A stretch of DNA of 33,472 nt. Source: Fusobacterium sp. DD2 (GTDB lineage: Bacteria; Fusobacteriota; Fusobacteriia; Fusobacteriales; Fusobacteriaceae). How positions within the stretch are numbered: position 1 is the stretch's first letter; each line of letters begins with the position of its first letter. The notes under the pieces are model-generated. The model saw nothing but the letters and a program-made list of their open reading frames with translations. It did no database searches and was not told the origin of the DNA. This document shows, piece after piece, positions 7,131 through 30,101 of this stretch. Both the position numbers and the translations under genes were made by a program. Where the stretch lies: positions 1-33,472 of the forward strand of contig NZ_JADRHM010000022.1 of NCBI RefSeq assembly GCF_018205345.1, read 5' to 3'.

Positions 7131-9308
7131 CTAAGCTTTTGTCAGAAATTTATCTGCAACAGCCATTGCTATCTCTTTTGTTCCACCAACAAAGTTAATT
7201 GTAACTTTCTTATCATTTACATCTTTTACTACCCCAAGACCGAATTTCTTGTGTGTAACCTTTTCTCCAACAGAATAAGGAAAATCCTTAGCTCTTTTAT
7301 TCAAATCTTCCATAGTGATAACTTTCTTAAATCCTTGTGTTCCACTGCTATAAGAATTCTTTGAGTAAGTTGTTGGTTTAGGCTCTACTACATTTGTCTT
7401 AGTAAGTTCTTTTGGTATCTCTTCTATAAATCTTGATGGTGTTCTGAAGAAATCCTCATTACCAAACATAAATCTTGAATTTGCATAACTTATATACAGC
7501 TGTTCTTCAGCTCTTGTTATTGCAACATAGCAAAGTCTTCTCTCCTCTTCTAGTTCACTTGGGTCAAACTCAACTTTTTTACCTGGGAAAAGTTCATCCT
7601 CTGCTCCAACTAAGAATACAACTGGGAATTCAAGTCCTTTTGAGTTGTGAATAGTCATAAGTTTTACATAGTCCTGTTCATCCTCTAAGTTATCAGTAGC
7701 ACTTACTAAAGATATATTTTCAAGATACTCTCTTAAAGTCAGATTTCCTACAACATTTTCCAACTCAACTATTGAGTTCTTAAGCTCATCAATGTTATCA
7801 AGTCTATTTTCAAAATCATCATAAGTTGCTTTAAGATAATCTCTATATCCTATTTTACTCAATACCTCATCATATAGCTCTGATACTGGAAGTTCAGCAC
7901 TTGATTGTATAAACTCATTCAGCATATTATAGAAATCCAAAAGTGTCATCTTAAGATTTGCACTTAATCCTGCTATTTCATGTGCTCTTCCTATTGCCTC
8001 AAATACTGATATATCCTGTTCCTTTGCAAATCCCTCTATCTTTTCAACTGATTTGTCCCCGATTTTTCTTTTAGGAACATTTAATATTCTATTAAGATTT
8101 AAGTTATCATCAACGTTATTTATAACAGATAGATATCCTACCATATCTTTAATCTCTGCTCTTTGATAGAACTGAACAGCTCCAAAAATCTTATAAGGGA
8201 TATTATCTCTTAAAAATCTTTCTTCAAACATTCTTGACTGTCCGTTAGTTCTGTATAAGATTGTAAAATCTCTATATCTTCTACCTAGTGCCTTTCCTTT
8301 TATTATCTCAAGGGCAACAAAGTCAGCTTCCTGTCTGGCATCTGTACACTGCTCAATAGTGATTACATCTCCCAAACCTTTTTTTGTCCAAAGTTTCTTA
8401 TCCTTTGCACTTTTATTATTTTTGATAACTGCATTTGCAGCATCCAGAATAATAGATGTAGAACGATAGTTTTCTTCCAATTTTACAACTTTTGCATCTC
8501 TATAATCCTTTTCAAAGTTAAGAATATTTTCTATATTAGCACCTCTAAATCCATATATACTTTGGTTTTCATCTCCAACTACACATAGATTTCTGTATTT
8601 TGCTGCTATCTTATTTACTATCTCATACTGAATTGTATTGGTATCCTGATACTCATCTACCATTATATATCTGTATTTATCCTGTACCTTTGCTAAGATA
8701 TCCTTTAAATCAAGTAATTTATTAGCATTGACTAGAATATCTGAAAAGTCCATAGCGTTATTCTGCTTTAAAGTCATGTCATATCTTCTGTAGATTTCAG
8801 CTATTATCTTCCCATTGTCAAACTGATTTAATTTTTCATATTCATCAGGTGTTATCTTATCCTCTTTAGATTTAGAAATTTTACTTACTAAATCTCTCTC
8901 TTTAATACTTTTATCATCTTTTCTTCCAATATCCTTTAAGATATTTTTAACCACTCTTTTCTGGTCATCTACATCATATATAGTGAAGTTTGGACTATAT
9001 CCAAGTCTGTCACCAAATACTCTTAATAATCTCAATGCAAATGAGTGAAATGTTGAAAGAGTAACTTTTTTACCATCTTCTCCTGCAAGGTCTTCAACTC
9101 TTTCCTTCATCTCTTTTGCTGCTTTATTTGTAAATGTAACAGCAAGTATGTTATAAGGAGAGATTCCCAGCTCCTTTATCATGTAGGCAATTCTGTAAGT
9201 TACAGTTCTTGTTTTACCAGAACCAGCTCCTGCAAGTATTAAAACAGGACCTTCAATTTTCTGGGCTGCCTCACGCTGTTTATCATTTAATTTATCTAAA
9301 ATACTCAT
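7131..9308 (-). CDS. pcrA: PcrA/UvrD-type superfamily 1 DNA helicase
   Basis: 3'-5' DNA helicase for repair and replication restart. Seen in order: Q-motif region, Walker A AGAGSGKTRTV (about residues 27-33), TFHSFALRLLR, Walker B VDEYQDTN, GDENQSIYGFRGA, EENYRST, MTIHNSKGLEFPVVF and YVAITRAEEQLYIS, then a C-terminal Tudor-like tail (VGEKVTHKKFGLGVV) of the type that contacts RNA polymerase in PcrA. I choose ATG 9308; AAGGAG is 12 nt upstream, while an in-frame TTG at 9320 directly abuts it. About 725 residues fits PcrA. It shares the strand and tight spacing of the lipid A genes although its function is unrelated. Confidence 0.95.
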   Translation of the reverse strand: MSILDKLNDKQREAAQKIEGPVLILAGAGSGKTRTVTYRIAYMIKELGISPYNILAVTFTNKAAKEMKERVEDLAGEDGKKVTLSTFHSFALRLLRVFGDRLGYSPNFTIYDVDDQKRVVKNILKDIGRKDDKSIKERDLVSKISKSKEDKITPDEYEKLNQFDNGKIIAEIYRRYDMTLKQNNAMDFSDILVNANKLLDLKDILAKVQDKYRYIMVDEYQDTNTIQYEIVNKIAAKYRNLCVVGDENQSIYGFRGANIENILNFEKDYRDAKVVKLEENYRSTSIILDAANAVIKNNKSAKDKKLWTKKGLGDVITIEQCTDARQEADFVALEIIKGKALGRRYRDFTILYRTNGQSRMFEERFLRDNIPYKIFGAVQFYQRAEIKDMVGYLSVINNVDDNLNLNRILNVPKRKIGDKSVEKIEGFAKEQDISVFEAIGRAHEIAGLSANLKMTLLDFYNMLNEFIQSSAELPVSELYDEVLSKIGYRDYLKATYDDFENRLDNIDELKNSIVELENVVGNLTLREYLENISLVSATDNLEDEQDYVKLMTIHNSKGLEFPVVFLVGAEDELFPGKKVEFDPSELEEERRLCYVAITRAEEQLYISYANSRFMFGNEDFFRTPSRFIEEIPKELTKTNVVEPKPTTYSKNSYSSGTQGFKKVITMEDLNKRAKDFPYSVGEKVTHKKFGLGVVKDVNDKKVTINFVGGTKEIAMAVADKFLTKA

Positions 9309-9358
9309 CAGTTTTTTCAACTCCTTCTAATAAACAATTATATCATAAATACTGCACT

Positions 9359-10588
9359 CTAATCAATTAAATAGTCCACGTGAATCATGACATCTTTTAT
9401 ATTTTCAAAATCAAGTATAAGTGACTCTCTTATACCATCTGCAAGGTTATGTGCATTGTATACTGTCATATCCTTTGGCACTCTTATGTGAAGGGACAAA
9501 AATATCTTATCTCCTGATTTTCTCATAAAGATATCATGTACATTTTTTACCTGGCTATTTTTTTCGATATATTCTTCAACACTATTTATAAATTCCTCAT
9601 CCTGTTTATCAAGTATAATATTAGAAGTTTCAAATATTATAGATACACCCTCTTTAAAAATAAGAAGTCCAACAATAACACTGACAATTATATCAAATAC
9701 AGGTGATACCCATATTGATAGTAAAATACCGATTATTACTCCACCTGATGAATACACATCACTTTTACTGTCTTTTGCATCAGCAATCAAAGCACTATTA
9801 TCAGTAGCTAATCCAACTTTCATCTTATATCTGTACATAAAAAATTTGACAACCATTGAAATCCCAGCCCAAAGTATTGTCATATATGAAGGAGTAGTCT
9901 CATAATCTCCGCTTATTAATATTCTTACACTTCCCTTTATAAGTTCAAAGGCAGTAATTAAAAGGAATAATCCCATCATATTCCCTATTATACTCTCTAT
10001 CTTTTCATGTCCATATGGATGTTCCTCATCTGCAGGTTTATTACTGAAATATATTCCAAGATATATAGCTGTTGAGCTTCCCACATCTGAAAGTGAATTG
10101 ACCCCATCTGAAATAAGGGCTCTTGATTCACCATATATTCCCCCTGCTATCTTTAAAACTGCCAGAAATATATTCTGAATAATAGATGAAAGAACAACTT
10201 TTTTCCCCTCTCTCATTCTCTCATTTTCCACAAGGATATTATCCAGTTCAAGACATCCATCTTTTTCTCTAAAACCATACTTTTTCAAAAATGAACCTAT
10301 GCTTTTATTGTTGCAAATTATCCTGTCTACATGCTTTTCTCTGGCGTGATTTACAACAAATTTTAAAATCTTTGTACCATAAGATTTATATCTCATTCCT
10401 GCTCTTACAAAAACCCTTTCAAGAGTGTAACTGTTATCCCCAACATTTACAAGAGCATATCCTATGATATTCCCATTTTCATGTATACAAAAATAACTTC
10501 CCTTCTCCTCATCAATAAAATCATGGTCCATTTCATGCAATTCTACTAAATCTTTTTTCATTTCATTAAAATTGAAAATTTTATACAT
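9359..10588 (-). CDS. GNAT acetyltransferase-like domain fused to a CDF cation-efflux transporter
   Basis: Two-part protein. Residues about 1-125 have a GNAT look: GNIIGYALVNVG, LERVFVRAGMRYKSYGTKIL (a degenerate acetyl-CoA loop) and a C-terminal FLKKYGFREKDGCLEL. Residues about 128-409 are a full-length cation diffusion facilitator with SDGVNSLSDVGSS in TM2, ADEEHPYGHEKIESI, ADAKDSKSDVYSS in TM5 and a cytoplasmic ferredoxin-like tail. The metal-site positions read Asn164/Asp168 and Asp273/Asp277, the N-D-D-D pattern linked to Mn exporters of the MntE type rather than the H/D-D-H-D of Zn exporters (inference). ATG 10588 has GGGGGT 5 nt upstream; the ffs 3' end lies about 17 nt upstream. Substrate unproven. 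Confidence 0.85.
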   Translation of the reverse strand: MYKIFNFNEMKKDLVELHEMDHDFIDEEKGSYFCIHENGNIIGYALVNVGDNSYTLERVFVRAGMRYKSYGTKILKFVVNHAREKHVDRIICNNKSIGSFLKKYGFREKDGCLELDNILVENERMREGKKVVLSSIIQNIFLAVLKIAGGIYGESRALISDGVNSLSDVGSSTAIYLGIYFSNKPADEEHPYGHEKIESIIGNMMGLFLLITAFELIKGSVRILISGDYETTPSYMTILWAGISMVVKFFMYRYKMKVGLATDNSALIADAKDSKSDVYSSGGVIIGILLSIWVSPVFDIIVSVIVGLLIFKEGVSIIFETSNIILDKQDEEFINSVEEYIEKNSQVKNVHDIFMRKSGDKIFLSLHIRVPKDMTVYNAHNLADGIRESLILDFENIKDVMIHVDYLID

Positions 10589-10605: not shown

Positions 10606-10733
10606 AAAAAAAGCCATGAAAACCAAAGAGGCAGTATCATATACCCGTAACAAATGCCTTAGTGCTGCTTCCTCCCGGACCTGACACGGTTCGACACCGC
10701 TACGCCATACGATTCCTCTCCGATTTCCATGAC
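10606..10733 (-). ncRNA. ffs: Small bacterial signal recognition particle RNA (4.5S type)
   Basis: The minus strand carries the diagnostic SRP loop: GTGTCAGGTCCG, then GGAGGAAGCAGCAC, flanked by GGCGTAGCG and by CTAAGG. The 5' segment GTCATGGAAATC pairs with the 3' segment GGTTTTCATGGC, closing a single long hairpin of about 120 nt, and a run of seven T follows. This is the short, Alu-less form with the conserved tetraloop region that binds Ffh. The predicted 5' end (10733) lies 6 bases after a TATAAT box. Any reading frame across it is spurious. Confidence 0.95.
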
Positions 10734-16289: not shown

Positions 16290-16600
16290 CTATTTAAGAT
16301 CAAATCTCCATGATGCTCCAACTGAGTACATAGAAGAACTATGTGATCCTGGAGTAAGTGATACTTTAGCATTGATACGTAAGTCCTGTGTAGGTGCTGC
16401 CTGAACTCCAACTGCCACTGCCTGAGTACCTTCATATCCTCCAACTGCCACTGCCTGAGTACCTTCATATCCTCCAACTGCTGCTCCAACTGTAGCCTGA
16501 TTTACTCCAATTTCCATGAAGTTTATACCTGCCATAGCTGCTGCATTTGCAAGTCCTTTATTAACTTTAGTTTCAAGTTTTGAGATTCTTTGACTGTTTT
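16290..16600 (-). other. YadA-type membrane anchor domain of the adhesin
   Basis: A last coiled-coil neck (SQRISKLETKVNKGLANAAA) leads into GINFMEIGVNQATVGAAVGG, repeated GYEGTQAVAVG, DLRINAKVSLTPG and the terminal YSVGASWRFDLK, with aromatic C-terminal residues as expected for a four-strand-per-subunit trimeric barrel. Confidence 0.93.
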
Positions 16601-19600
16601 GTTGGATAGCTCCTTGCACTCCTTCTCTGAATTGTGCATTTTCAGCTCTCAAGTTGTCAATTGTCTTGTTCAATGTTCCACCATTTACAAGTTTTCCTTC
16701 GTCTTCTTTTGCTACGTGTCCACTTTCATCCAGTTCTGCTGTCTTAACTCCTGTGATTTCACCATTTTTAATAACAACAGTTCCAACTTTAAGTTCATTT
16801 GTTTCAAATTTATCTGTTGTAAGTTTTTCAGTTACAATCTCTTTTGTTGTTACCTTGTCAGCTTCTACCTCTTTAGCTTCAACCTTGTTTGCAACTTTTA
16901 TATTGTCCACTTTCAAGTCTTTAGCTAAATTGATATCAACTGTATGTTCTGATGTTCCAGAAGTTCCTGATGTTCCACCTGTTGTTGAACCTCCTGATGT
17001 TGGAGTTACTGGTTTACCGTCAAGAACTATGTTATTTTCACTACTTTCAAATTTCAGAGTATCTCCAAGTTTTACATGTAACTTCTTAACATGTCCATCT
17101 TTATCTTTTACATCAACAGCGAATCCTTTTCCTTGAAGTTTGTCATCAAGTTTTGTCTCAGTTACAAACTTGTCTACTTTTCCATCTTCACCCTTAATAC
17201 CTATACCATCTTTTCCGTTAACTCCAAGAGTTACATCATTTGTTCCATCAGTCAATGTTACTGTATCAAATTTTGGATTCTTAAGCATTGCAACTCTTAG
17301 TACTCCACTATCAACAAAAGTAGCAAGGTTATCACTAGAGTAAGTATCTGGATCGTAAACTGCCTTTTCCTTACCTTCGATATTTAGTTTTTCTCCAAGG
17401 TTCTTATGGATTACTTCTCCATCATTTCCTTCAAAGTCAAGTCCTGCTACTGCTACTGCCTGTAAGTCTCCAACTGTTGTTACAGTATTTATATCCTTAC
17501 CTTCAGCTTTCAGAAGTTTATCTTTTACTGCATTTTGAGCAAGTAGAACTTTTTCACTAGCAATTGCATCTTCTTTTGCCTTATCTAAGTCAGCTTTAGC
17601 AACATTTAATTCAGCTAATGCTTGTTGTCTAGATATTTCAGCATTTGTCAGGTTACTAGCTGCAATTTTTGCTGCTTCTTTCATACTTTCATTGTCAGGA
17701 TTGTCTTTAAAGTTTTTCTCTGCTTTTGCAAATTCACTCTTAGCTAATTTTAACATTGTTTCTGCTGTTGCCAATCTTCCTGTTTTTTCTGTTACCTTCT
17801 GCTCAGCTGTTTCAATTGGTGCTTTTTGTCTTGCTTTTGCTTCCGCTAATAGACCTTGTTTTTCTTTAACTGTCTTTGTTGCTATTGATACATCATCCAT
17901 CGCTACAAAATAATTATCTCTATTTTCTTTAGATGGATCCACTGTAAATTTAGCTTTTGCTATATTTAAAGCACCTTGTGCTGTACTTAAGGCATTTTCT
18001 GCATCAGTTACAGCATTTTGTGCAGCTATTACATCTGTATCATTTTTATCAAATGATTTCATAGCTTCTCTTATAATACCCTTAGTATTTCCTAATGTTG
18101 TAGCTACTTGAGTTGAACCGTCTGGATTTACTGCTGAGATATGGATATCTTTTTCATTTAGAGCAGTTCCTGTTGGATTTCCATCACTATCTATATCTCC
18201 TTTAGCATAGAAATGTCCATCATTTCCTTTTACTATACGGTTTCCAGCAGCATCTGTATAAACCATAGGTCCTGAAAGACCATCTCTTAAGCTGTTAACT
18301 TTATCTACTATTGATTTTCCATCAAGTCCGTCTGCTCCATTTGATCCTGATGTTCCACCTTGAAGATCTTTTTCAGTTATAATCTTAGTGAATCCGTCTT
18401 TTCCGTCTACTCCGTTTGTTCCATCTATTCCATTTTTAGCTATCAGATTTCCGTTATCATCAACTGTAATTACTGCTGATTTTCCATCTGTTCCATCCTT
18501 ACCATTGCTCATAACAAGACCTTCAAACTTAGGTTTCTTAAGCATTTCTATTCTCAGTACTTCTCCATCATTATGAGTAATCAGGTTATCTGCTGAATAT
18601 TGAGATGCTGTTTCTTTAATTTGATTTGAAGAATTTTCTGGTTTTGCATTCCATTCATTTGCTGCATCTTTCGAGATGTATTTAGCATCTGCCTTACCTT
18701 CAATGTTCAGTTTAGTTCCAAGATTTCTATGGATTACAGCTCCATCATTTCCTGCAAAGTCAAGTCCTGCAAGTGCTATTGTCTTCAGATCTCCCACTGT
18801 TGCCGCATTATTTAATCCATCTGTAGAACCTGTTAGAGTTTCAACTACCGCTTGTGCGTCCTTAACCGGATCGCTTGTCGGACTTGTAGGTTTCAATAAG
18901 CTTGCTACATTTCCTATCACTATAGGATTTGCACCATCTGGATTTACTGCTGAAATTTGGATATCTTTTGGATCCAATGCACTTCCTGTTGGTTTTCCAC
19001 TTGAATCTTTAACATAGTATTTATTGTCTGTTCCTTTTACAAGCTCATTTCCATCTTTATCTGTATATACCATTATTCCTGATGTTCCATCTTTCAGATC
19101 TTGTTCTGTTACTATCTTACTGAATCCGTCTTTTCCGTCTACTCCATTTGTTCCATCTATTCCGTTTCTAACTATTATGTTTCCGTTATCATCAACTGTA
19201 ATTACTGCTGATTTTCCATCTATTCCATCTGTTCCATCCTTACCATTGTTAACAACAAGTCCTTCGAAATTAGGTTTCTTAAGCATTTCTATTCTCAGTA
19301 CTTCTCCATCTTTATGAGTAATCAGATTATCTGCTGAATATTGAGATTCTGTTTCTTTAATTTGATTTGAAGAATTTTCCTCTTTTGCATTCCATTCATT
19401 TGCTGCATCTTTCGAGATGTATTTAGCATCTGCCTTACCTTCAATATTTAACTTAGTTCCAAGATTTCTATGAATTACTTCTCCATCATTTCCTGCAAAA
19501 TCAAGGCCTGCTACAGCTAATGTTCTTAAGTCTCCAATTGTTGCCGCTGTGTCTGTATTGTACTCATTTTTAACAAGTTTTCCTGTTACTGCCTGAGTTG

Positions 19601-22600
19601 CATCTACTCCACCTTCTGCAGTTCCAAGATTTTCATGTACAGTTTTCTTAGCATTTGCTATTGTATCTTTTGCATTTGCTATTACTGTTTCATCTTTTCC
19701 AGTACCTTTTGCTTCTTCTGTAGCTATTGTTTCTTCAGCTTCCTTAATAGAAGTATTAGTAATATTATCTTCTAAATCACTATCAAGTAATCCTTTTACA
19801 TTTCCTATTGCTGTAGGTGTTGTTGTCTCACCGTCTGGATTTAATGTTGAGATTTTAACCTTATCATTATCTATTGGCGACTTACCTGATTTAGGTTTTC
19901 CGTTTTCATCCACGTCTGATACAGCATAGAACTTACTATCTGTCGCTTTTGCTACACGATTTCCATCTTCATCTGTATAAACTACTGGAAGATCACCTGT
20001 TCTCAATGTAGATGCAAGATCTTTTTCTGTCACTATCTTAGTAAATCCATTATCTCCATCTCTTCCGTTTGCTCCAGTTGCTCCATCCAGTCCGTCAACT
20101 CCATTTCTTCCAGTTGTTCCATTTTTAATTACTAGATTTCCATCTTTATCTACAGTGATGATTGATGTCTTACCATCTTTACCATTTGCTCCATTGATTA
20201 CTAAATCTTTGAACAATGGTGACTTAAGCATTTCTATTCTCAATACTTCACCATCTGCATGTGTAATCAAATTCTCTGCTGAATACTTAGCTTTATTGCT
20301 GTTATCGTATTTAACTGTAGATATTCCTTCTATATTCAATTGAGTTCCAAGATTTCTATGGATTACCTCCCCATCATTTCCTACAAAATCAAGTCCTGCT
20401 ACAGCTATTGTTCTCAAATCACCTACTGTTGCTGCTGTGTCTGCATTTAACTCATTTCCAAGAAGTTTTTCTGTCACAACTTTTGCTGCTTTTATTCCTT
20501 CAGACTTAGTAGCTAATGCATTATATATACTATTTTTTTCATCATTTAATGTTTTCTCTGCCGCAGCTACTGCTTCTTTAGCATTTTTTAAATTTTCTTC
20601 TAATTGCTGTATATCTTCTTCATTTGGTGTAGCTTTTGCATCGTCTAATGCTTTCTGTGCTTTTTCTTCTGCATCCTTCTTCTCATTTAACTGAGTTTTA
20701 TAGTTTTCTATATTGTTATTTGTGATATTATCTGCAAGTCCACTATCAAGTAAACCTTTAACATTTCCTATTGTTGTAGGAGTTGTTGTCTTACCATCTG
20801 GATTTACTGTTGATATTACAACATTTTCTCTTTCTGTTCCACTTAATCCCTCTATTATATTTACTGGGTTCTGTCCTGAGTTTACCTCACCTGTTTCAGG
20901 GTTAATAGAAGTTTTATTGTAATATTTACCATCTACCTTAACTAAATCTTTTGTTTTTTCATCAATTGTTTCTTTAGCATAGTATTTTCCATCTACTTCT
21001 ACAAGACGGTTTCCATCTTTATCTGTATAAACCATTGTTCCTGATGTTCCAGAATTCATATCTCTTTCAGTTATAATCTTAGTCAGTCCATCTCTTCCGT
21101 CTTTTCCTGATGTTCCATCAATTCCTTTAAGTCCATCTCTTCCATTTACTCCATCTTTAACTACAAGGTGTCCATCTTTATCAACAGTTATGATAGCTGA
21201 TTTACCATCTTTTCCATTGATAACAATATCTCTGAAACTTGGAGATTTTAACATCTCTATCATGATAGTACCTTCAGTAGTCTCACGAGTTAATATATTT
21301 TCTGGAGAGAAATTTTTAACATCGTATGGTTCTGCAGGTTTTCCTTGAATTGTTAATGTTTCTCCCAATCCCTTATGAATTCCTTTAGGTGTTCCTTGAT
21401 TTCCTTTAAATACCATACCTGCTTTAGCAAGTGCCTGTAAATCCATAACTGTTGCAACATTATTTAAGTCTGCTCCTGATTTAGTTTTTAAAGTATCCAT
21501 TCCTTCTAATGCCTTGTCTTCAGTAACAGGCTCTGTAAATCCTAATCCACTTTTAACATTACTCAATGCTATTGCTTTAGTTGTACTTCCATCTTTATCT
21601 ACTGTAGAAAGTTTTACTGGATTAACAGGTTTTAAATTTGCAAGTGTTGGAGTTCCTGTTAATTCTCCTTTTTCATTTACTGAATCTGCCATATAGTATC
21701 TACCATTATTTGCTTTCTTATATTTTGTTTTTCCCTCTGAATCTGTAGCCTCCACATCTTCACGTTTATAGAAGTTGTTGTCTATATCTCTTACAAGACG
21801 ATTTCCATCTTTATCTGTATAAACAACTGTTCCTGCAAGTCCATCTCTTAAACCTTGGATTTTTTCATTGATTGTTTTTCCATTCAATCCATCTTTTCCA
21901 GATGCACCCTTATCTCCAGAAGTTCCATCACTAGTTAGACCGATATCCTCTTTAAGTTTATCCAGTTGTCCTTTGGTTACTGCTGTGTCTTTTCCTTCTC
22001 CACCTTTTAATCCAGAAAGTACCATGTTAGAGTCACCAGGAGTGCTTGTGTTAGAAAGTTTAAGTTCTCCTGCTTTCGGAGTCAATGTTATAGTCTCATT
22101 ATCTCCTTTTTCAAGATTTAAAGTTTCAAATTTTGGTGATTTAAGCATTTCTATTCTAAGAGTATCTGAACCATCCGTATGTGTAATCAGATTTTCAGCT
22201 GAATATAGATGATCATTTCCATTTCTACTTCCACTTCCAACAGAACTTGTTCTATATTCAATATCGCTACCAACAATATTATATGTTCCACTTAAAGGTA
22301 TAGGGCTTACCTTATCTGTATCATTACCTTTAATATTTATTCCAGCTTGAGCCAGTGCCTGTAAATCTCTTGCTGTAGCTGCTATATCAAGATCTGTTGT
22401 CTGAGTTAATAAAGATCCCACTACTTCATTTGCCTTGATATTTGTTATTGCATTAGGCTTACTATCTATATTTAAAGCACTCTTTACATTATTTAAAATA
22501 ACTGGATTTGTAGTAGCTCCATCTTTGGTATTAACAGCTGATATTCTTATTGTGTCTTTCGCCACCTTATGAAGATTACCTATCTCTAACTTAGTTGCAT

Positions 22601-25600
22601 CAGATTTTGGATTTCCGTTTTCATCTAACTCGCTATAATAGTTACCATCATTTGCTTTTGTATAACCTCTGAAATCGCTCTGCTTATAATATTCATTTCC
22701 TTCCTTAACTAGACGATTTCCATCTTTATCTGTATAGACCATTGTTCCAGCAAATCCATCTCTAATACCTTGAACTTTATCCAGAATAGATTTTCCATCA
22801 AGTCCATCTGCTCCTGCTGGTCCTGTACTTCCAGTTGATCCTGATGTTCCATCTTTTCCATTAAGTCCTAATTGAGATTTAAATTCATCAATCTCACCTT
22901 TTGTAACTGCTGAGCTTTTATCTTGTCCAGGTTTTAGTCCATTAAGAACAATATCTCCATTGTCACCAGATAATGTTAATTTGTCTGTTCCTGGTGTCAG
23001 TTTTATTTCACCTAAGTTTAAAGACTCAAATTTTGGTGATTTAAGCATTTCTATTCTTATAACTTCACCATCACTATGAGTAATCATATTTACATCTGAA
23101 TATGCTACATTATTAGCATTAGAACCCTCTGTAATGTATTGTACATCTTTTCTACCTTCAATACCCAGTTGGCTTCCAAGTGGTCTTTCAATTACTTTTG
23201 TATCATTTCCTTTAAAGCTTAATCCAGCTTTAACAATTGCCTGTAAATCTCTTACTGTACTTACTCTATTAAGTTCTGTATCTTTTGTTTTTGATAATAA
23301 TCCCTTAACCTGAGCATCTTTTATACTGCTTGTATTATTCATAGAATAATTATCAGTTAGGCCTAAACCACTAGCTATATTTCCAACACTTATAGGAGTT
23401 TTAGTATCATCTGTTGATTGTGGTTTTACTGCTGATATGATAATATCTGTCTGTTTCTGAGCACCTGCCATTAAAATATCCAATGTTTTTCCAGTTCCTT
23501 CATGTCCTGGTTTAACATGTCCATCCTCTATTGCAGTATCTTCATAATATTTACCATTTATCTCTGTTAAACCTTGTGTATTAGTATCAACATCTGCTTT
23601 TTTATAGTAATTATTGCTTACTTTTACAAGATGGTCTCCGTCACTATTTGTATAAACCATAGTTCCAGACATTCCATCTTCCAGTTGTTGTACTTTCCCT
23701 CCTACACTTCCATCAAGACTTCCTATCTTGTTTTCAAGTGCATTAAGTTCACCCTTTGTAACTGCTGAATCTGGAGTTTCCCCAGCTTTTAGTCCATTTA
23801 AAACAACCTTATCATTAGATGTATTTCCTTCCAGTGTAAGCGAATTAGATCCAGGTTTTAATGTAACTTTATTACTTACATCTTTTGCTAAAACTAGTGA
23901 AGAAAATTCAGGATTGTCACTTAATCCAACTTTAATAGTTCCGTCATTACCAGATTTAACATACTGAGTTTTCAGGTTCTTACCAACAAAACCTGTTTCC
24001 ACATCTCCAGATTTTACAGCTAAAGTACTTCCAAGTTGTTGTGTTCCACTGTCTTTATCTCCAGCAAAACTAATACCTTTATTTATAATTTTAGTATTTA
24101 GATTAATTGCATCCAACACATTTTTTGCTACACTCTCACCAGTAAGTGCTACAAAAGTAATATCGTTACCATCACTTTTAACCCATTTCTTCTTTGAAGC
24201 ATCATACTTTATATCTCCAATAAGCTTGCTTGCTTGTTCTACATTTACTGCATCATCAGGGTTAACTCCAGCCGCCAAGTTACTTATAGTTGTTTTGCCA
24301 TTCTTACCTCTTAAAGTTATCTTGTTTTTATTAACATCATCATATTTAACTACGACACCATCAAGACTTGCGATTTTATCATCCATCTGTTGAGTAGTAA
24401 CAACTGAAGTTGGTTGTCCATCTGGATGTTCTACTGTTATATTATCAAATGTTGGTGTATCACTCATCTTAAGTTCAACTACACCTATTTTTCCTTCGAA
24501 GTTAACCTTTTCGTGAGTGACAGGATCCTCATATTTTAAATCTGTAACTTTTCTACTTCCTGAGTGAGTACTTAAATTTTTTCCATCTCCTGCAAAAACA
24601 AGTGTCTGTCCTTGAACAATATTAGTAGCCCCTGAAATAGAGTCTATATGTAATTCTGGAACTTGCTCACCATTTACTTCTTTTGTTGTCATATGAGCTT
24701 TTCCACCAGTTACTCTCCATCCCCCTTTTAATCTTTCTATTGCATCTTTAACGTTGTTAATTTCTACATGTTTGAAATTATTATTGTCATTTAATGTAAC
24801 ACTAAAATGAAGTGGGTTGTCTGCTCCATTTTCTCCCATCAAAGCTCTATGAACATCAAACATTTGAGAACCATTTACTGCATCACTTGAAGTAGCTGTT
24901 ATGGCTCCAGATGCCACATTAGTAATCTTAGTTTTATCTACAGAGCCACCTGCTAATTCTACAAGATTTTTATTGATTGTACTGTCTGCATTTTTCGAAT
25001 ACTTAACTGCAAAATCAAGTTCTTTCTCATTCTTAGTGGCTTCTTCTTTAATCTTTTTAACGTCTTCATTAACAGTTGATTCTACTTTTTTTAATTGATC
25101 TTCAGTAGCAGCACGACCACTTACAATTGGTCCATCCCAATTTGTATTTGTTAAACCTGTTATAAATTTACCTGTTGTGCTTCCATCAACAGTTATGCCT
25201 CCAACGTTGATTTTATTCTTTAATTCCAGCTTAACATTAAAATCCTCCATACCATCTTTAGTAATTTTCAGGTTATCATCTGAAGTAAATCTTACAGTTT
25301 TTCCTTGTTTTATTACCGATGGTGAACGATCTTCATTAACTGCTAATTTCCATGTGTTATCTTTTATTTCCTTAATATTAGTTTCTGATGAATCAATTCT
25401 AGTTGTAATATCGTTTTTAACTTTATTTAACTGACCAAAGTTAACTGCATCCTTTGGATCTGCTCCATCTGCCAGATTTGTTATCTTTGTTCCGTTTGTT
25501 CCACCTTCAAGATTAATTTGCTGTTTATTTTTATCGCTATATGTAACAACTGGTTTTTCTCCACTCATATCCAGTCCTGATTTTTTCAGTTGTCCTACAT

Positions 25601-28600
25601 TTACTGCATCATTATCTGCTATTCCATCTGCCAGATTTGTAAGCACCACATTACTTATTCCTCGACTATCTGGTTTTTGCAGTCTGATTTTTACATTTTC
25701 AGAGTCTATGTAATTGTTTTTATGGGGTGCAGATCCAGTATCAACAGTATCAACTGTTGCAACAAGATTTTCATCTACATCTGTAACTTTGTAGAAATGA
25801 TAGTTATCTGTATTTTTATCTTTAGCATAAACAACTGGTGTTCCATCTGCTGTTACATATGCAGTTGCTCCATATTTTCCTTTTGCCCCCTCTTCAAACA
25901 CTTTAGGGATACTATTATAAGTTTCACCATTTCCCAATTTATATGAAGGCTTACCAATAGTGCTATTATCAGCTTTCATACCAAGTGCATTAATGACTGG
26001 TATTAGTTGTGAACCATTGATAGCATCAGTTGACTGAGGACTTATAGTTCCTTCACTGATATTACTTAATTTAGCCGGTGACTCAATTGTACCATTTTTA
26101 TTTAACGCTGAAATCTTAACAGTGTTAAGTAGTGAAGCATCAACAGCTTTATCTGGATGTCCATGTTCATCCAACCATTTAAAACCTTCACTAGTTTTAA
26201 CAACTATTTTTTCTTTGCCATCTGTGTCTGTTACTGTATATGCCATTGGAGAATTTGTTGAAAGAGCTATTACTGCTGAAGTCGTACTACCTCCCACGTC
26301 AGCAATATTTTGCTTTAGTTCCTTATACTGTTCATATGTGAGAACCTCTCCATTAGATGTTCCTGGTTTTACTCCAATTATTTTTCCATTATCATTAATC
26401 TTGATATTTCCAAATTGTGGAGTGCTTGATACATTGATTGTATAAGTTCTGCTATTCTTATCAAGATCCACTATAATATTATTATTGCCTTTAAATGTTA
26501 TATCTTCTCCTAATTTTACTGGAGTATCATTTGCAGTACTTCCATTTCCATCTCTAAATGTAATTGGACTTTGTGATTTTGCATCCAAATCAGTTAATGC
26601 TTCTGATACAGTATTTTTTCCAAGATATTCACCATTTGAAGATTCTACTGTTCCTCCTGTAATATTAAGATTTAAAGCATCCAATGCTGGTTTCAGTTGT
26701 TCATATACAACAACTTCTTTATCCTGTTCTCCACCTTTAACTCCAATTATTTTTCCATTATCATTTATTTTGATACTTCCAAATTGTGGAGTATCTACCA
26801 TAGAAATATGCAGCTTGTTACCAGATGTAGAACTATCTAAAGTTGTAACAACATTTTTCTCTCCTTCTACTTCAAGAGCATTTCCCAAATGAATAACCCC
26901 ATGTTTAGTACCTGAGGTATCAGTTACTTTTATTGTCCATCCTTTATCAATTAAATCTTTATTTGCTTTAATATTTCCTGCATTAGTTGCTATATTCGCC
27001 TTATTAGTTGCTATATTGCCTTGATTTTTTTGAATATTATCTTTATTTTCAGCTATAGCTCCTTCATTTGTTGTAATACGATTGCCTTGAGCAATGATTT
27101 CATTTCTATTTTTTTGAATATTAGCTTTATTGTCATCTGCTTGATTTTGTGCATTCTCTGCTTTAGTGTCTGCAGCTATAGCTTTTTGATCCACTCTCCA
27201 TAGCTGATCTCCATTTACTGCAGCCTTACTTCCTTCTTTTACCTCTCCTGGTGCTATATTTGCTATCTTATGTCCACCTGCATATATCATTCCAGGAATT
27301 TCATTTCCATAACCATCTTTTTCTCCAGCAGGAATATTTTTTGTGATACTTACGTTAAATGCCCCAGGATCGCCAATATATATCTCATCTGCATCAATTC
27401 TTGTAAATTTCGGATCTTTTGCATAGTTAATTGTAAGTCCATCAGCACTTTTATCAACTCTTAAATTTTTATTACCAATATTTTTTCTTTCAGTTTCTAC
27501 AGAAGTCAATGCAAAATCATTTGAACTACCTAAAGTATATGTTCCACTTATACCTGTATCACCCTTATATTTAAATATTGCCTTATCTAATGATAAAACG
27601 CTATCTGCTTTGGCCATACCTTTTGTATATTCATATATATCTCCACCTGTTACAGCATCTTTAGATCCTGCTTCAATAATTCCATGACCCATATTAGTGA
27701 TTTTTGCATCATGTACATTTATACCATCTGTTTCAAATGATATTGTTTGACCATTACCAGCAGCAATACTGTTTATTCCTTTAAGGTCTTTATTAAGTGT
27801 ATGGTTTACTACACCATTATCCTCTGTAGTAACCAAGATATTGTCATCACCTTTAAATGTAATCCCTTTAGCTAAAGTAGTAGTTTTGTCTGATTCTTTA
27901 TCAGCTTTATAGTGAAGTGCTAAATCTGATACTCCAAGTTTTTCTTTCCACTTGTCAGCATTGATATCATTTCCATCTTTATAGTCTGTTTTAGTTACAT
28001 AACTATCACCAAGTTTATTTATAAGTTTTTCTTTATCCAGTGACACTGTAAACTTGTCAGCTCCATCTAAATCACTTTTCTCAACTACTATTTCATCTTT
28101 TCCCTCTACTACAGGTTTAGCAGCTGCTATTGCTTTAGATACAGCATCTCCAGAAACTACCTTAGTTTCACCAGCTTCTACTTTTCCTTTATTTAAACTT
28201 AAGCTCATTTGTCCATTAGCAACAACATTTATATCACTGTCACCTTTTATTACAAATTCAGGATCATTCTTCAAATCTTTAGTTATTTTATTAGTTCCAT
28301 CTGAAAGTGTAATTTCCTTGTTTCCTAAAGAGCTTATTGCCCCAGATATAGTAGTTTGACCTGTTCCACCTATATCGTCATTTTTAACTGAAATCTCTCC
28401 ATTTTCATTCAGCTCAAAAGAATCTCCCAATACATTTTTACTTGTATTTGCAAGATTACTTAACACTTTATTTGTAGCATAAAGTTGAGAACCATTAATA
28501 GCATCTGTAGAATCAGCTAAAACTCTTCCAGCTGCCACATTTGTTATTGTACGTTCCTCTCCAGGTTTTCCTAAACTTAAAACTCTTGATTCTCCATTTG

Positions 28601-30101
28601 TAGTTGGATCTCCAACAAAATCACCATATTTAATTTTATCAATCATAACTGAAGTAACTTTTGATACAGTTCCTGTTTCTGCTCCATTACCTAAAGCTAT
28701 GCTATTTTTTTCAGTTGCTTTTGCTCCACTACCTATAGCTATGCTATTTTTTTCAGCTACATTTGCCCCACTACCTATAGCAATAGAATCGTTCATATTA
28801 TTATTTATCTTAGCATCTTTTCCTATTGCAATACTGTTTAAAGAACCTGCTCCAGTTGCTGCATTATCTCCTAAAGCTATTGAACTTGCTGCATTTCCTT
28901 TAGCTCCGAATCCTATTGCAACAGCATGTTTTCCAGCTTCTCCCTCATCAGCTCCTGATGTTGCAGCAGCATATCCTAGAGCAATACTGTCTATTCCTTG
29001 TGCGCCCTGATTTAGATAGTTATTCTTTTTAGCTGCTTCTATATCTTTTGCTATATTTTTCTGAGGGTAACCATCTGCTTCTAATTTATCTGCAATAGTT
29101 CCTATATCTTTTATTATTTTAGCAAAAGCCTGAGATTTCGCTTCTCCAGTTTTAGTTTTTGCAGTAGCTATATCAGCAATTACCTCTTTAAATGGATTAT
29201 CGTCACCACGAGGAATTGCAGTATCTCCCTTAAGAATATCATCCACTTTCTTTTGAAGTTCATCTACTGTTTTTTGATTAAATTTTTCATCTGCAATTTC
29301 CTGTCTAGCTTTGATATACATCAATTCTTTTTCAAGTTTTACATACTTATTATAGTTTGTAATCTTATCTATAGTTGCTTTTGCTTTTCCAGCTTCACCT
29401 TTACTTTTTTCAACAGATAGATATTGTATACCTCCACCTTCATTTAATCCGTCCATTTGAGTGTCAAAACGTTCTTCCAATGTTTTTAATTGGGCAACGT
29501 TAACAGCATCTGTATCAAGTGCTCCAGATGCTACATTTACTATACGACGCTCTCTACCTCTTGAACCAACAGAGATAACCCCTGTATTTCCAGATGTAGG
29601 TATTGATATTGCACCTTTTGATGCCCAAGGTGTTCTTTGAAGTTGCTCAAAAGTATAATCAGTTGCACTTTCAACTCCTAATGCAACAGAGTTTTCAAGA
29701 GTAGCCACTGCTCCCTTACCAAGTGCCATTGAGTTTATACCAGTTTCTTTTTCTCCTTCTCCTTCTACAACTTTTGCACCAAATCCAATTGCTGTAGCAT
29801 TTTCTATATTTGTATTTTTCTGTAAATCTTCAGCCCCAATACTTGCTTCGTTCCCTAATACTACTGAAGACTTAACTCCTGCAGCTATTTTTGTGTTATT
29901 TCCTAAAGATAGGTTATTTTCACTAGTTTCAATTGTAACCATATTACCAAAACTTAAATTTGAATTTCCGTAAGCGTTTGTCTGAGTTCCTATGACAATT
30001 GAATTTGCTCCCTGTACATATGAGTTAGTACCAAATATTGCTGAGTTTTCTCCCTCTACTACTGAAGCAGAACCAATAGAAATACTTTTTTCACTATCCA
30101 T
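16290..30101 (-). CDS. Giant trimeric autotransporter adhesin, main C-terminal part (stalk and YadA anchor)
   Basis: Reading frame of 4,603 residues with no signal peptide; it begins in the middle of a YadA-head repeat, so it is the continuation of the frame at 30059-31675 and not an independent gene. Joined, the protein would have about 5,128 residues. Order: rest of head (to 29690); neck with DAVNVAQL; a helical insert; a second head island (28680-29000); connector and stalk segments with TDAINGSQL/DAVNGSQM necks and three Trp-containing blocks (GWTIKV, NTWKLAV, GGWRVTG); a long heptad coiled coil; seven large modules (17050-23900) with collagen-like triplets; a pentad-repeat strip; and the YadA anchor ending in SWRFDLK. 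Expected on the outer membrane as a trimer. ATG 30101 is only the first in-frame Met; no ribosome binding site supports it. Confidence 0.9.
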   Translation of the reverse strand: MDSEKSISIGSASVVEGENSAIFGTNSYVQGANSIVIGTQTNAYGNSNLSFGNMVTIETSENNLSLGNNTKIAAGVKSSVVLGNEASIGAEDLQKNTNIENATAIGFGAKVVEGEGEKETGINSMALGKGAVATLENSVALGVESATDYTFEQLQRTPWASKGAISIPTSGNTGVISVGSRGRERRIVNVASGALDTDAVNVAQLKTLEERFDTQMDGLNEGGGIQYLSVEKSKGEAGKAKATIDKITNYNKYVKLEKELMYIKARQEIADEKFNQKTVDELQKKVDDILKGDTAIPRGDDNPFKEVIADIATAKTKTGEAKSQAFAKIIKDIGTIADKLEADGYPQKNIAKDIEAAKKNNYLNQGAQGIDSIALGYAAATSGADEGEAGKHAVAIGFGAKGNAASSIALGDNAATGAGSLNSIAIGKDAKINNNMNDSIAIGSGANVAEKNSIAIGSGAKATEKNSIALGNGAETGTVSKVTSVMIDKIKYGDFVGDPTTNGESRVLSLGKPGEERTITNVAAGRVLADSTDAINGSQLYATNKVLSNLANTSKNVLGDSFELNENGEISVKNDDIGGTGQTTISGAISSLGNKEITLSDGTNKITKDLKNDPEFVIKGDSDINVVANGQMSLSLNKGKVEAGETKVVSGDAVSKAIAAAKPVVEGKDEIVVEKSDLDGADKFTVSLDKEKLINKLGDSYVTKTDYKDGNDINADKWKEKLGVSDLALHYKADKESDKTTTLAKGITFKGDDNILVTTEDNGVVNHTLNKDLKGINSIAAGNGQTISFETDGINVHDAKITNMGHGIIEAGSKDAVTGGDIYEYTKGMAKADSVLSLDKAIFKYKGDTGISGTYTLGSSNDFALTSVETERKNIGNKNLRVDKSADGLTINYAKDPKFTRIDADEIYIGDPGAFNVSITKNIPAGEKDGYGNEIPGMIYAGGHKIANIAPGEVKEGSKAAVNGDQLWRVDQKAIAADTKAENAQNQADDNKANIQKNRNEIIAQGNRITTNEGAIAENKDNIQKNQGNIATNKANIATNAGNIKANKDLIDKGWTIKVTDTSGTKHGVIHLGNALEVEGEKNVVTTLDSSTSGNKLHISMVDTPQFGSIKINDNGKIIGVKGGEQDKEVVVYEQLKPALDALNLNITGGTVESSNGEYLGKNTVSEALTDLDAKSQSPITFRDGNGSTANDTPVKLGEDITFKGNNNIIVDLDKNSRTYTINVSSTPQFGNIKINDNGKIIGVKPGTSNGEVLTYEQYKELKQNIADVGGSTTSAVIALSTNSPMAYTVTDTDGKEKIVVKTSEGFKWLDEHGHPDKAVDASLLNTVKISALNKNGTIESPAKLSNISEGTISPQSTDAINGSQLIPVINALGMKADNSTIGKPSYKLGNGETYNSIPKVFEEGAKGKYGATAYVTADGTPVVYAKDKNTDNYHFYKVTDVDENLVATVDTVDTGSAPHKNNYIDSENVKIRLQKPDSRGISNVVLTNLADGIADNDAVNVGQLKKSGLDMSGEKPVVTYSDKNKQQINLEGGTNGTKITNLADGADPKDAVNFGQLNKVKNDITTRIDSSETNIKEIKDNTWKLAVNEDRSPSVIKQGKTVRFTSDDNLKITKDGMEDFNVKLELKNKINVGGITVDGSTTGKFITGLTNTNWDGPIVSGRAATEDQLKKVESTVNEDVKKIKEEATKNEKELDFAVKYSKNADSTINKNLVELAGGSVDKTKITNVASGAITATSSDAVNGSQMFDVHRALMGENGADNPLHFSVTLNDNNNFKHVEINNVKDAIERLKGGWRVTGGKAHMTTKEVNGEQVPELHIDSISGATNIVQGQTLVFAGDGKNLSTHSGSRKVTDLKYEDPVTHEKVNFEGKIGVVELKMSDTPTFDNITVEHPDGQPTSVVTTQQMDDKIASLDGVVVKYDDVNKNKITLRGKNGKTTISNLAAGVNPDDAVNVEQASKLIGDIKYDASKKKWVKSDGNDITFVALTGESVAKNVLDAINLNTKIINKGISFAGDKDSGTQQLGSTLAVKSGDVETGFVGKNLKTQYVKSGNDGTIKVGLSDNPEFSSLVLAKDVSNKVTLKPGSNSLTLEGNTSNDKVVLNGLKAGETPDSAVTKGELNALENKIGSLDGSVGGKVQQLEDGMSGTMVYTNSDGDHLVKVSNNYYKKADVDTNTQGLTEINGKYYEDTAIEDGHVKPGHEGTGKTLDILMAGAQKQTDIIISAVKPQSTDDTKTPISVGNIASGLGLTDNYSMNNTSSIKDAQVKGLLSKTKDTELNRVSTVRDLQAIVKAGLSFKGNDTKVIERPLGSQLGIEGRKDVQYITEGSNANNVAYSDVNMITHSDGEVIRIEMLKSPKFESLNLGEIKLTPGTDKLTLSGDNGDIVLNGLKPGQDKSSAVTKGEIDEFKSQLGLNGKDGTSGSTGSTGPAGADGLDGKSILDKVQGIRDGFAGTMVYTDKDGNRLVKEGNEYYKQSDFRGYTKANDGNYYSELDENGNPKSDATKLEIGNLHKVAKDTIRISAVNTKDGATTNPVILNNVKSALNIDSKPNAITNIKANEVVGSLLTQTTDLDIAATARDLQALAQAGINIKGNDTDKVSPIPLSGTYNIVGSDIEYRTSSVGSGSRNGNDHLYSAENLITHTDGSDTLRIEMLKSPKFETLNLEKGDNETITLTPKAGELKLSNTSTPGDSNMVLSGLKGGEGKDTAVTKGQLDKLKEDIGLTSDGTSGDKGASGKDGLNGKTINEKIQGLRDGLAGTVVYTDKDGNRLVRDIDNNFYKREDVEATDSEGKTKYKKANNGRYYMADSVNEKGELTGTPTLANLKPVNPVKLSTVDKDGSTTKAIALSNVKSGLGFTEPVTEDKALEGMDTLKTKSGADLNNVATVMDLQALAKAGMVFKGNQGTPKGIHKGLGETLTIQGKPAEPYDVKNFSPENILTRETTEGTIMIEMLKSPSFRDIVINGKDGKSAIITVDKDGHLVVKDGVNGRDGLKGIDGTSGKDGRDGLTKIITERDMNSGTSGTMVYTDKDGNRLVEVDGKYYAKETIDEKTKDLVKVDGKYYNKTSINPETGEVNSGQNPVNIIEGLSGTERENVVISTVNPDGKTTTPTTIGNVKGLLDSGLADNITNNNIENYKTQLNEKKDAEEKAQKALDDAKATPNEEDIQQLEENLKNAKEAVAAAEKTLNDEKNSIYNALATKSEGIKAAKVVTEKLLGNELNADTAATVGDLRTIAVAGLDFVGNDGEVIHRNLGTQLNIEGISTVKYDNSNKAKYSAENLITHADGEVLRIEMLKSPLFKDLVINGANGKDGKTSIITVDKDGNLVIKNGTTGRNGVDGLDGATGANGRDGDNGFTKIVTEKDLASTLRTGDLPVVYTDEDGNRVAKATDSKFYAVSDVDENGKPKSGKSPIDNDKVKISTLNPDGETTTPTAIGNVKGLLDSDLEDNITNTSIKEAEETIATEEAKGTGKDETVIANAKDTIANAKKTVHENLGTAEGGVDATQAVTGKLVKNEYNTDTAATIGDLRTLAVAGLDFAGNDGEVIHRNLGTKLNIEGKADAKYISKDAANEWNAKEENSSNQIKETESQYSADNLITHKDGEVLRIEMLKKPNFEGLVVNNGKDGTDGIDGKSAVITVDDNGNIIVRNGIDGTNGVDGKDGFSKIVTEQDLKDGTSGIMVYTDKDGNELVKGTDNKYYVKDSSGKPTGSALDPKDIQISAVNPDGANPIVIGNVASLLKPTSPTSDPVKDAQAVVETLTGSTDGLNNAATVGDLKTIALAGLDFAGNDGAVIHRNLGTKLNIEGKADAKYISKDAANEWNAKPENSSNQIKETASQYSADNLITHNDGEVLRIEMLKKPKFEGLVMSNGKDGTDGKSAVITVDDNGNLIAKNGIDGTNGVDGKDGFTKIITEKDLQGGTSGSNGADGLDGKSIVDKVNSLRDGLSGPMVYTDAAGNRIVKGNDGHFYAKGDIDSDGNPTGTALNEKDIHISAVNPDGSTQVATTLGNTKGIIREAMKSFDKNDTDVIAAQNAVTDAENALSTAQGALNIAKAKFTVDPSKENRDNYFVAMDDVSIATKTVKEKQGLLAEAKARQKAPIETAEQKVTEKTGRLATAETMLKLAKSEFAKAEKNFKDNPDNESMKEAAKIAASNLTNAEISRQQALAELNVAKADLDKAKEDAIASEKVLLAQNAVKDKLLKAEGKDINTVTTVGDLQAVAVAGLDFEGNDGEVIHKNLGEKLNIEGKEKAVYDPDTYSSDNLATFVDSGVLRVAMLKNPKFDTVTLTDGTNDVTLGVNGKDGIGIKGEDGKVDKFVTETKLDDKLQGKGFAVDVKDKDGHVKKLHVKLGDTLKFESSENNIVLDGKPVTPTSGGSTTGGTSGTSGTSEHTVDINLAKDLKVDNIKVANKVEAKEVEADKVTTKEIVTEKLTTDKFETNELKVGTVVIKNGEITGVKTAELDESGHVAKEDEGKLVNGGTLNKTIDNLRAENAQFREGVQGAIQQNSQRISKLETKVNKGLANAAAMAGINFMEIGVNQATVGAAVGGYEGTQAVAVGGYEGTQAVAVGVQAAPTQDLRINAKVSLTPGSHSSSMYSVGASWRFDLK
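16411..16476 (-). repeat. Perfect 33-bp tandem duplication within the anchor
   Basis: Bases 16411-16443 and 16444-16476 are identical, adding an extra copy of the 11 residues VAVGGYEGTQA inside the most conserved part of the adhesin. Confidence 0.97.
16785..16905 (-). repeat. Seven-fold five-residue repeat before the final neck
   Basis: The protein reads NKVEA KEVEA DKVTT KEIVT EKLTT DKFET NELKV: a strict five-residue period with a hydrophobic residue in position 3 and Ala/Thr in position 4 or 5. The bases have diverged, so the protein pattern is under selection. Confidence 0.85.
17490..18060 (-). other. Ala-rich helical insert in the last stalk module
   Basis: About 190 residues rich in Ala, Lys and Glu (AAQNAVTDAENALSTAQ, ETAEQKVTEKTGRLATAE, LNVAKADLDKAKED) between IREAMKSFD and VTTVGDLQ. 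It looks like long amphipathic helices, possibly hairpins. Shorter relatives sit at the same place in the modules at 19550-19790 and 20440-20745. Confidence 0.8.
18490..18770 (-). repeat. Near-identical 281-bp block, copy 1
   Basis: Aligns without gaps to 19231-19511 with about 21 mismatches by eye; both encode the KYISKDAANEWNAK segment, which is found in no other module. Confidence 0.9.
19231..19511 (-). repeat. Near-identical 281-bp block, copy 2
   Basis: Partner of 18490-18770; similarity continues on both sides, pointing to recent duplication of a whole module. Confidence 0.9.
20056..20125 (-). repeat. Collagen-like Gly-X-Y stretch
   Basis: Nine consecutive triplets (GTT GRN GVD GLD GAT GAN and so on) without proline. 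Others lie at 21095-21165 (eight), 21885-21935 (six), 22790-22868 (nine, including the only GPA), 19130-19170 and 18390-18430 (about five each). Confidence 0.85.
22790..22868 (-). repeat. Collagen-like Gly-X-Y stretch with GPA
   Basis: Nine triplets: GLN GKD GTS GST GST GPA and then GAD GLD GKS. The tandem GST and flanking GTS triplets suggest slippage growth. Confidence 0.85.
26378..26800 (-). repeat. Duplicated beta-type stalk block
   Basis: TPQFGSIKINDNGKIIGVK (about 26740-26795) recurs as TPQFGNIKINDNGKIIGVK (about 26378-26432), each followed by a VVYEQLK/LTYEQYK segment; the bases are also closely similar. Confidence 0.85.
26938..27140 (-). repeat. Asn-core heptad coiled coil (I-x-x-N-x-x-N)
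   Basis: About nine heptads of the form IxxNxxN (IQKNQGN, IATNKAN, IATNAGN, IKANKDL), ending in a Trp (DKGW) that starts the next connector. Neighbouring heptads share a 21-base DNA repeat at 26982-27023. This is the N-at-d coiled-coil type known from trimeric autotransporters. Confidence 0.85.
28681..28790 (-). repeat. 42-bp tandem repeats of a YadA-head unit
   Basis: Successive copies begin at about 28681, 28723 and 28765 and encode SIAIGSGAxxxEKN; the first two differ at only a few bases. They form part of a second head island at 28680-29000. Confidence 0.85.

Follow-up and report, generated by a model that had tools for sequence, protein, structure and literature searches.

A GNAT domain joined to a predicted manganese exporter of the CDF family in Fusobacteriota

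CDF transporters are in general homodimers that export metal against an incoming ion. Published abstracts place the regulation of CDF exporters in their metal-binding C-terminal domain. Parts of PMC5703985 describe ND-DD as the A site of bacterial CDF clade 1, shown to be Mn-selective, and report only a limited correlation between A-site composition and metal. Passages of PMC1868760 single out Mn-CDFs by a DxxxD motif in TM5; these proteins carry D, not N, at the first ligand position of TM2. A GNAT-fold protein with a controlling role is PanZ (PanM), which according to part of PMC4410942 controls PanD in a CoA-dependent manner.

Here we describe a gene of Fusobacterium sp. DD2 (contig NZ_JADRHM010000022.1) that joins a GNAT domain to a CDF transporter. 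It was analysed within a window of 33,472 nucleotides, the whole stretch of DNA under study. The protein is already in databases and its parts are ordinary; their combination is a distinct, conserved architecture. In the literature searched (titles and abstract starts of open-access papers) we found no description of a GNAT-CDF fusion, and the terms 'acetyltransferase' and 'Fusobacter' are absent from the main texts of PMC5703985 and PMC1868760. The copy of Cetobacterium somerae (L183, NZ_CP092520.1), located on a 705-kb second replicon, is annotated as 'GNAT family N-acetyltransferase' only and its transporter half is unnamed. Naming by the GNAT half, as in this one relative, could cause the exporter to be missed in fusobacteria.

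Domain architecture and metal site

An earlier note on this DNA had read the gene as a GNAT domain fused in one frame to a manganese-type CDF exporter. The fusion is borne out by an open reading frame of 409 aa with Pfam domains of both kinds (Table 1). Residues ~1-117 adopt the GNAT fold and residues ~125-406 form a complete CDF transporter with the usual C-terminal domain. Pfam detects Acetyltransf_1 (PF00583) at residues 15-106 (E 6e-11, 43.1 bits, cut-off 20.7), Cation_efflux (PF01545) at residues 134-326 (E 1.6e-43, 149.2 bits, cut-off 26.6) and ZT_dimer (PF16916) at residues 330-405 (E 2e-21, 76.1 bits). Two curated models, PF01545 and TIGR01297, place the protein among the CDFs; the latter, the NCBIfam model of the CDF superfamily, scores 226.5 bits against a cut-off of 82.35, and the listed equivalogs all score under theirs.

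Table 1 Position of the fusion gene, its parts and its neighbours in the window
Feature	Coordinates	Strand	Basis
GNAT-CDF fusion gene, 409 aa, stop codon included	9359..10588	(-)	single ORF, ATG start; same architecture in 77/98 Fusobacteriota genomes
N-terminal GNAT domain, residues 1-117	10238..10588	(-)	Pfam PF00583/PF13508/PF13673; AF2 model and PDB matches
CoA pyrophosphate loop R66-Y-K-S-Y-G71	10376..10393	(-)	R66 and G71 invariant in 74/74
Predicted continuous helix 118-152, GNAT to TM1	10133..10237	(-)	AF2 whole-protein model
CDF transmembrane domain, residues 134-326	9611..10189	(-)	PF01545 E 1.6e-43; YiiP/ZnT fold matches
A-site half in TM2, N164-S-L-S-D168	10085..10099	(-)	alignment to FieF D45/D49
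A-site half in TM5, D273-S-K-S-D277	9758..9772	(-)	alignment to FieF H153/D157
C-terminal dimerisation/metal domain, residues 330-405	9374..9601	(-)	PF16916; FieF alignment; conservation
4.5S SRP RNA gene (ffs), upstream of the fusion ATG (context only)	10622..10721	(-)	RF00169, 58.3 bits
UvrD/PcrA-type helicase gene, downstream, then lpxC and fabZ (context)	7131..9320	(-)	Pfam; neighbour in part of related loci

Structure prediction and structure searches agree with this division. Folded alone by AlphaFold, residues 1-125 gave a confident model (pLDDT 87.8, pTM 0.81; 6 alignment rows) that matches GNAT structures over nearly its full length, with a Z score of up to 14.4 for GCN5 (122 residues, 2.3 Å). 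The N-terminal part thus belongs to the GNAT superfamily by Pfam cut-off and by fold, as the earlier note had proposed; a non-GNAT fold was not found. The whole-protein model (mean pLDDT 80.3, pTM 0.52; a shallow alignment of 14 rows) predicts residues 118-152 as one unbroken helix running from the GNAT domain into TM1; for the CDF part, the structure search gave YiiP and ZnT as matches. On the sequence, we regard the GNAT-CDF architecture as practically certain. The earlier note also treated a metal-sensing C-terminal tail as usual for CDFs; what stands of this for the fusion is that its CDF unit keeps the usual metal-binding C-terminal domain.

When the protein is aligned with FieF of E. coli (chain 2qfi), N164, D168, D273 and D277 occupy the positions of D45, D49, H153 and D157, so the paired CDF ligands of TM2 and TM5 are present and the proposed N-D-D-D site is supported. 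D168 and D277 are invariant in all 74 aligned fused proteins. In the same alignment, D187, H190 and H194 fall at positions that we take to be site B of FieF, and H351, H367, H403 and D405 at those presumed to be site C. Within the fused family the A site reads NDDD in 59 of the 74 proteins, HDED in 14 (L058, L059, L061, L062, L065-L073 and L081) and HDDD in one (L074), the N/H and D/E changes mostly occurring together. The C-site quartet is HHHD in 39, HDHE in 32 and a rarer form in 3. Such an A-site switch within one fused clade suggests a change of metal or of incoming ion, and because both A-site and C-site types vary, the metal may differ within the family.

For the DD2 copy, the manganese-type assignment of the earlier note is partly upheld. 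Its A site has the ND-DD composition given for clade 1 in parts of PMC5703985 (a comparison of motifs, not a clade placement) and the DxxxD of TM5 that parts of PMC1868760 ascribe to the Mn-CDF group (D273-SKS-D277). That group has D at the first TM2 ligand where the DD2 copy has N164, and we do not assign the protein to it. The MntE equivalog model (NCBIfam NF052621) reached 119.4 bits of the 500 required, and the protein is not classed as MntE. Neither the window nor 15 related loci showed a Mn riboswitch (at gathering threshold) or a gene linked to metals. From the sequence, Mn2+ seems on balance the probable main substrate of the DD2 copy; the weight given to it is held down by the N for D in TM2 and by the limited site-metal correlation, and the assignment does not extend evenly to the relatives with H-D-E-D sites.

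Distribution, ancestry and genomic neighbourhood

A search for the same fusion across Fusobacteriota, as the earlier note had suggested, covered 98 genomes including that of the window. Fused frames occur in 77 of them, one per genome (L001 and L034-L109). The other 21 genomes lack the fusion: 16 have CDF matches that are all unfused and more distant, and 5 have none. The GNAT assignment across the fused loci comes from the alignment and from Pfam in a sample of 32 relatives, 31 of which matched at E 0.01 or better. One locus (L100) is cut by a contig end and another (L075) has no in-frame GNAT start; the remaining 75 loci yielded 74 distinct proteins for alignment, including L060, itself cut at the N-terminus by a contig end. 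In L075 (genome G063) the GNAT part shares the reading frame of the CDF part and lacks an in-frame start codon; a run of seven A close to an ATG of another frame is suggestive of either a frameshift or an error in the sequence. Four members of genome family f4, presumably the Leptotrichiaceae, have a shortened N-terminus (L103, L104, L107 and L108).

A tree of the CDF part separates 66 fused from 37 unfused rows by one branch with 100/98 support, and this split is present in 100% of 200 bootstrap trees. For the tree, nine of the 74 proteins were dropped as near-duplicates, L075 was added and L100 excluded; it was rooted at the midpoint and did not include second CDF copies from genomes that carry the fusion. 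A long-branch warning covers, among others, the branch between the two groups and L081. On the fused side the tree tracks the genome families. Divergence of the GNAT part covaries with that of the CDF part (Mantel Spearman 0.71, n=73; all 500 permutations gave lower values), for which shared ancestry alone could suffice. Because the fused CDFs form one clade, a single fusion event early in Fusobacteriales is probable on these sequences, and the most economical history has a single such event in an ancestor of the order, followed by vertical inheritance and whole-gene loss in some lineages.

Outside the phylum, a profile of the GNAT part (A1) was run against samples of 9, 398, 299, 148 and 151 genomes, the listed genomes of the third overlapping those of the second. 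The search was strict (1e-8 to 1e-10, large samples) and scored many genomes only partly, so that absence there is not implied. None of the matches listed for the 398-, 299- and 148-genome samples exceeded 189 aa, a length that cannot hold both a GNAT and a CDF part; the 151-genome sample gave zero profile matches and is hence without a positive control. Among the matches from the 9-genome sample, two frames of 397 and 312 aa were judged by eye to be other proteins with a GNAT part, one nucleoside-phosphorylase-like and the other likewise non-CDF. A 288-aa frame of genome G098 also matched the profile in this sample. An Azospirillum plasmid match over 93% of the query (one of 8 listed out of 751 matching plasmid records) runs across two annotated genes and was set aside.

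The fusion gene of DD2 is preceded by the SRP RNA gene, the sole RF00169 match in this genome. A nucleotide-profile scan placed an SRP RNA on the same strand no more than 400 nt upstream, or slightly overlapping, in 53 of the 77 fused loci; among the other 24, two have at most 103 nt of upstream sequence and four carry the SRP RNA about 2.6 kb away. None of 13 unfused CDF loci had an SRP RNA upstream. This adjacency occurs in two families of the order and is commoner than a downstream pcrA. The RNA is of the small type in the DD2 window; an Rfam search of 15 loci showed the large type in ten and the small in one. The best promoter-like site on the fusion strand (11 of 12 matches) precedes ffs, but such sites are as many as in shuffled sequence and the SRP hairpin is followed by a run of seven T; we do not claim a shared transcript. 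Downstream, the start of a pcrA homologue lies within 1.5 kb in 31 of the 76 loci besides the window, a count in which three of the remaining loci were too short to judge and L049, with overlapping frames, was missed by the script. Some f4 genomes have a U32-peptidase or DUF389 gene after the fusion. The neighbours do not reveal a metal or an acetylation pathway. A very long frame, of some 4,600 codons, lies elsewhere in the window, at 16293-30101 (-).

Conservation and possible role of the GNAT domain

The CoA loop of GNAT proteins usually follows the motif R/Q-x-x-G-x-G/A. The earlier note had called this loop degenerate in the fusion and had raised a dead sensor on that ground. As worded, this ground is not supported: R66 and G71 do not change across all 74 fused proteins, and position 69 varies. 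At this position, presumably the glycine of the usual loop, the DD2 copy and 42 others have S, 26 have G and 5 have other residues; 26 of the 32 f4 sequences carry G and with it a canonical loop. Seven columns of the GNAT part are conserved in at least 90% of the 74 proteins: Y44 (69), I/V59 (69), R66, G71, F100 (69), K103 (K in 68, R in 5) and the invariant F106. Position 101 is L or F in all 74, where YxKxGF has what we take to be the usual catalytic tyrosine. Many active GNATs lack this tyrosine.

Pooled over 11 close pairs, omega was 0.14 for the GNAT domain, 0.09 for the transmembrane domain and 0.07 for the C-terminal domain, with one GNAT pair at 0.52. These values indicate that the GNAT domain is constrained by purifying selection, less so than the transporter part. 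For comparison we used RimI-type proteins of the same genomes (50 loci fetched, 41 used, 39 genomes also with an aligned fused protein). Across these 39 genomes, 16 of 139 RimI-type columns reach 90%, including several Y, an E and an N, vs 4 of 119 in the fused GNAT (Y44, R66, G71 and F106); the contrast is rough, since the control includes matches below the family cut-off, is slightly more conserved overall (mean pairwise identity 0.37 vs 0.31) and has its activity assumed from family. The fused GNAT is not RimI itself, scoring 24-28 bits against a cut-off of 86.4. The DD2 genome holds another RimI-family match of 78.6 bits, itself under that cut-off.

Fold and CoA loop without an evident catalytic set would suit a CoA-binding regulator better than a one-substrate enzyme. 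A sensor without catalysis, one of the earlier proposals, is therefore still favoured, by way of the few conserved columns and the missing tyrosine and not by way of loop degeneracy. The main rival, which we judge less likely, is that the domain is an active acetyltransferase tethered to the membrane. Such an enzyme would modify either a small molecule or a protein target, perhaps its own transporter, and the CDF part would provide location or metal-dependent control. The complete fold with its CoA loop, the invariant R66 and G71, the purifying selection, the glycine at position 69 in most f4 sequences and the conserved Y44 and K103 would all fit an enzyme, but none of the conserved columns, whether four or seven, is a usual general acid or base, and the tyrosine is absent throughout. 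Moreover, the GNAT part of the DD2 copy is only ~19-30% identical to those of f4 members, and RimI-family matches distinct from it occur in 94 of the 98 genomes at 1e-12 (54 of 98 over the family cut-off).

The fast divergence of the domain, the shortened N-termini in f4 and the many substitutions at position 69 would be expected of a structural or assembly module that has lost CoA binding and aids folding, dimerisation or placement of the transporter. We consider a purely structural role improbable, because it does not predict the conservation of the CoA loop, in which R66 and G71 stay invariant amid varying neighbours. Least probable by far is that the gene makes two independent proteins, by an internal start or proteolysis, or that the fusion is a prediction artefact. 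Residue 125 is M in the DD2 copy and in 5 others of 42 sequences outside f4, and the GNAT frame of L075 has no start of its own; the same position is K in 26 of these 42, and the predicted helix runs on through it. A separate GNAT gene beside a CDF gene starting near residue 125 was looked for, and no such pair was seen among the 77 loci.

The reading that we favour, a CoA-binding regulatory (PanZ-like) domain, is thus a plausible though tentative one on sequence grounds. Its counterpoints are that the fold is about as similar to those of GCN5, RimI and aminoglycoside acetyltransferases as to that of PanZ (Z scores within ~1 of each other), and that Y44 (69 of 74) and K103 are conserved polar residues compatible with a catalytic role. 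In the proposed mechanism the CDF part would be an exporter of a divalent metal, most likely Mn2+, and the GNAT domain would sit in the cytosol beside TM1. There it may bind CoA or acyl-CoA without needing a fixed acetylation substrate and, by analogy with PanZ and PanD, could tune transport or dimer assembly via the helix continuous with TM1. Metal export would then be set by CoA or acyl-CoA status as well as by the metal sensed by the C-terminal domain. We put forward as a still more tentative proposal that Fusobacteriales set the export of Mn2+ (or Fe2+) by CoA-thioester status via a pseudo-acetyltransferase on TM1, alongside C-terminal metal sensing. If true, this would tie fermentative acyl-CoA metabolism directly to metal homeostasis, and a conserved CoA-binding-type domain in cis, kept across the order, would represent a second input into metal export.

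Comparison with known systems

The fusion GNAT shares its fold and, apart from the variable position 69, its CoA loop with RimI/GCN5-type acetyltransferases, of which the RimI-type members in the same genomes differ by their larger conserved set (16 vs 4 columns). Stand-alone GNATs of 128-129 residues (L123 and L124) were the top two GNAT-profile matches (E ~1e-13) in 398 genomes of Clostridium polyendosporum's phylum. They have the same F-F-K-x-x-G-F end as the fusion GNAT, no CDF attached and flanking genes that look cheR-like and mogA-like by eye. PanZ is likewise a minimal GNAT of ~127 residues and resembles the fusion GNAT with Z 13.9 over 113 residues (2.3 Å). Among the 50 Foldseek rows listed, the highest target-normalised TM (0.69) belongs to 4cry_B; we take 4crz and 4cry to be PanD-PanZ entries. 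PanZ differs in being a separate protein with another partner and 15% identity, and a CoA role of the fusion GNAT would be by analogy. FieF/YiiP and MntE (SLC30) resemble the fusion in the CDF transmembrane domain, the TM2/TM5 A site, the B-site positions and the C-terminal dimer domain. The A site is N-D-D-D in the fusion vs D-D-H-D in FieF, and the fusion alone adds an N-terminal GNAT domain.
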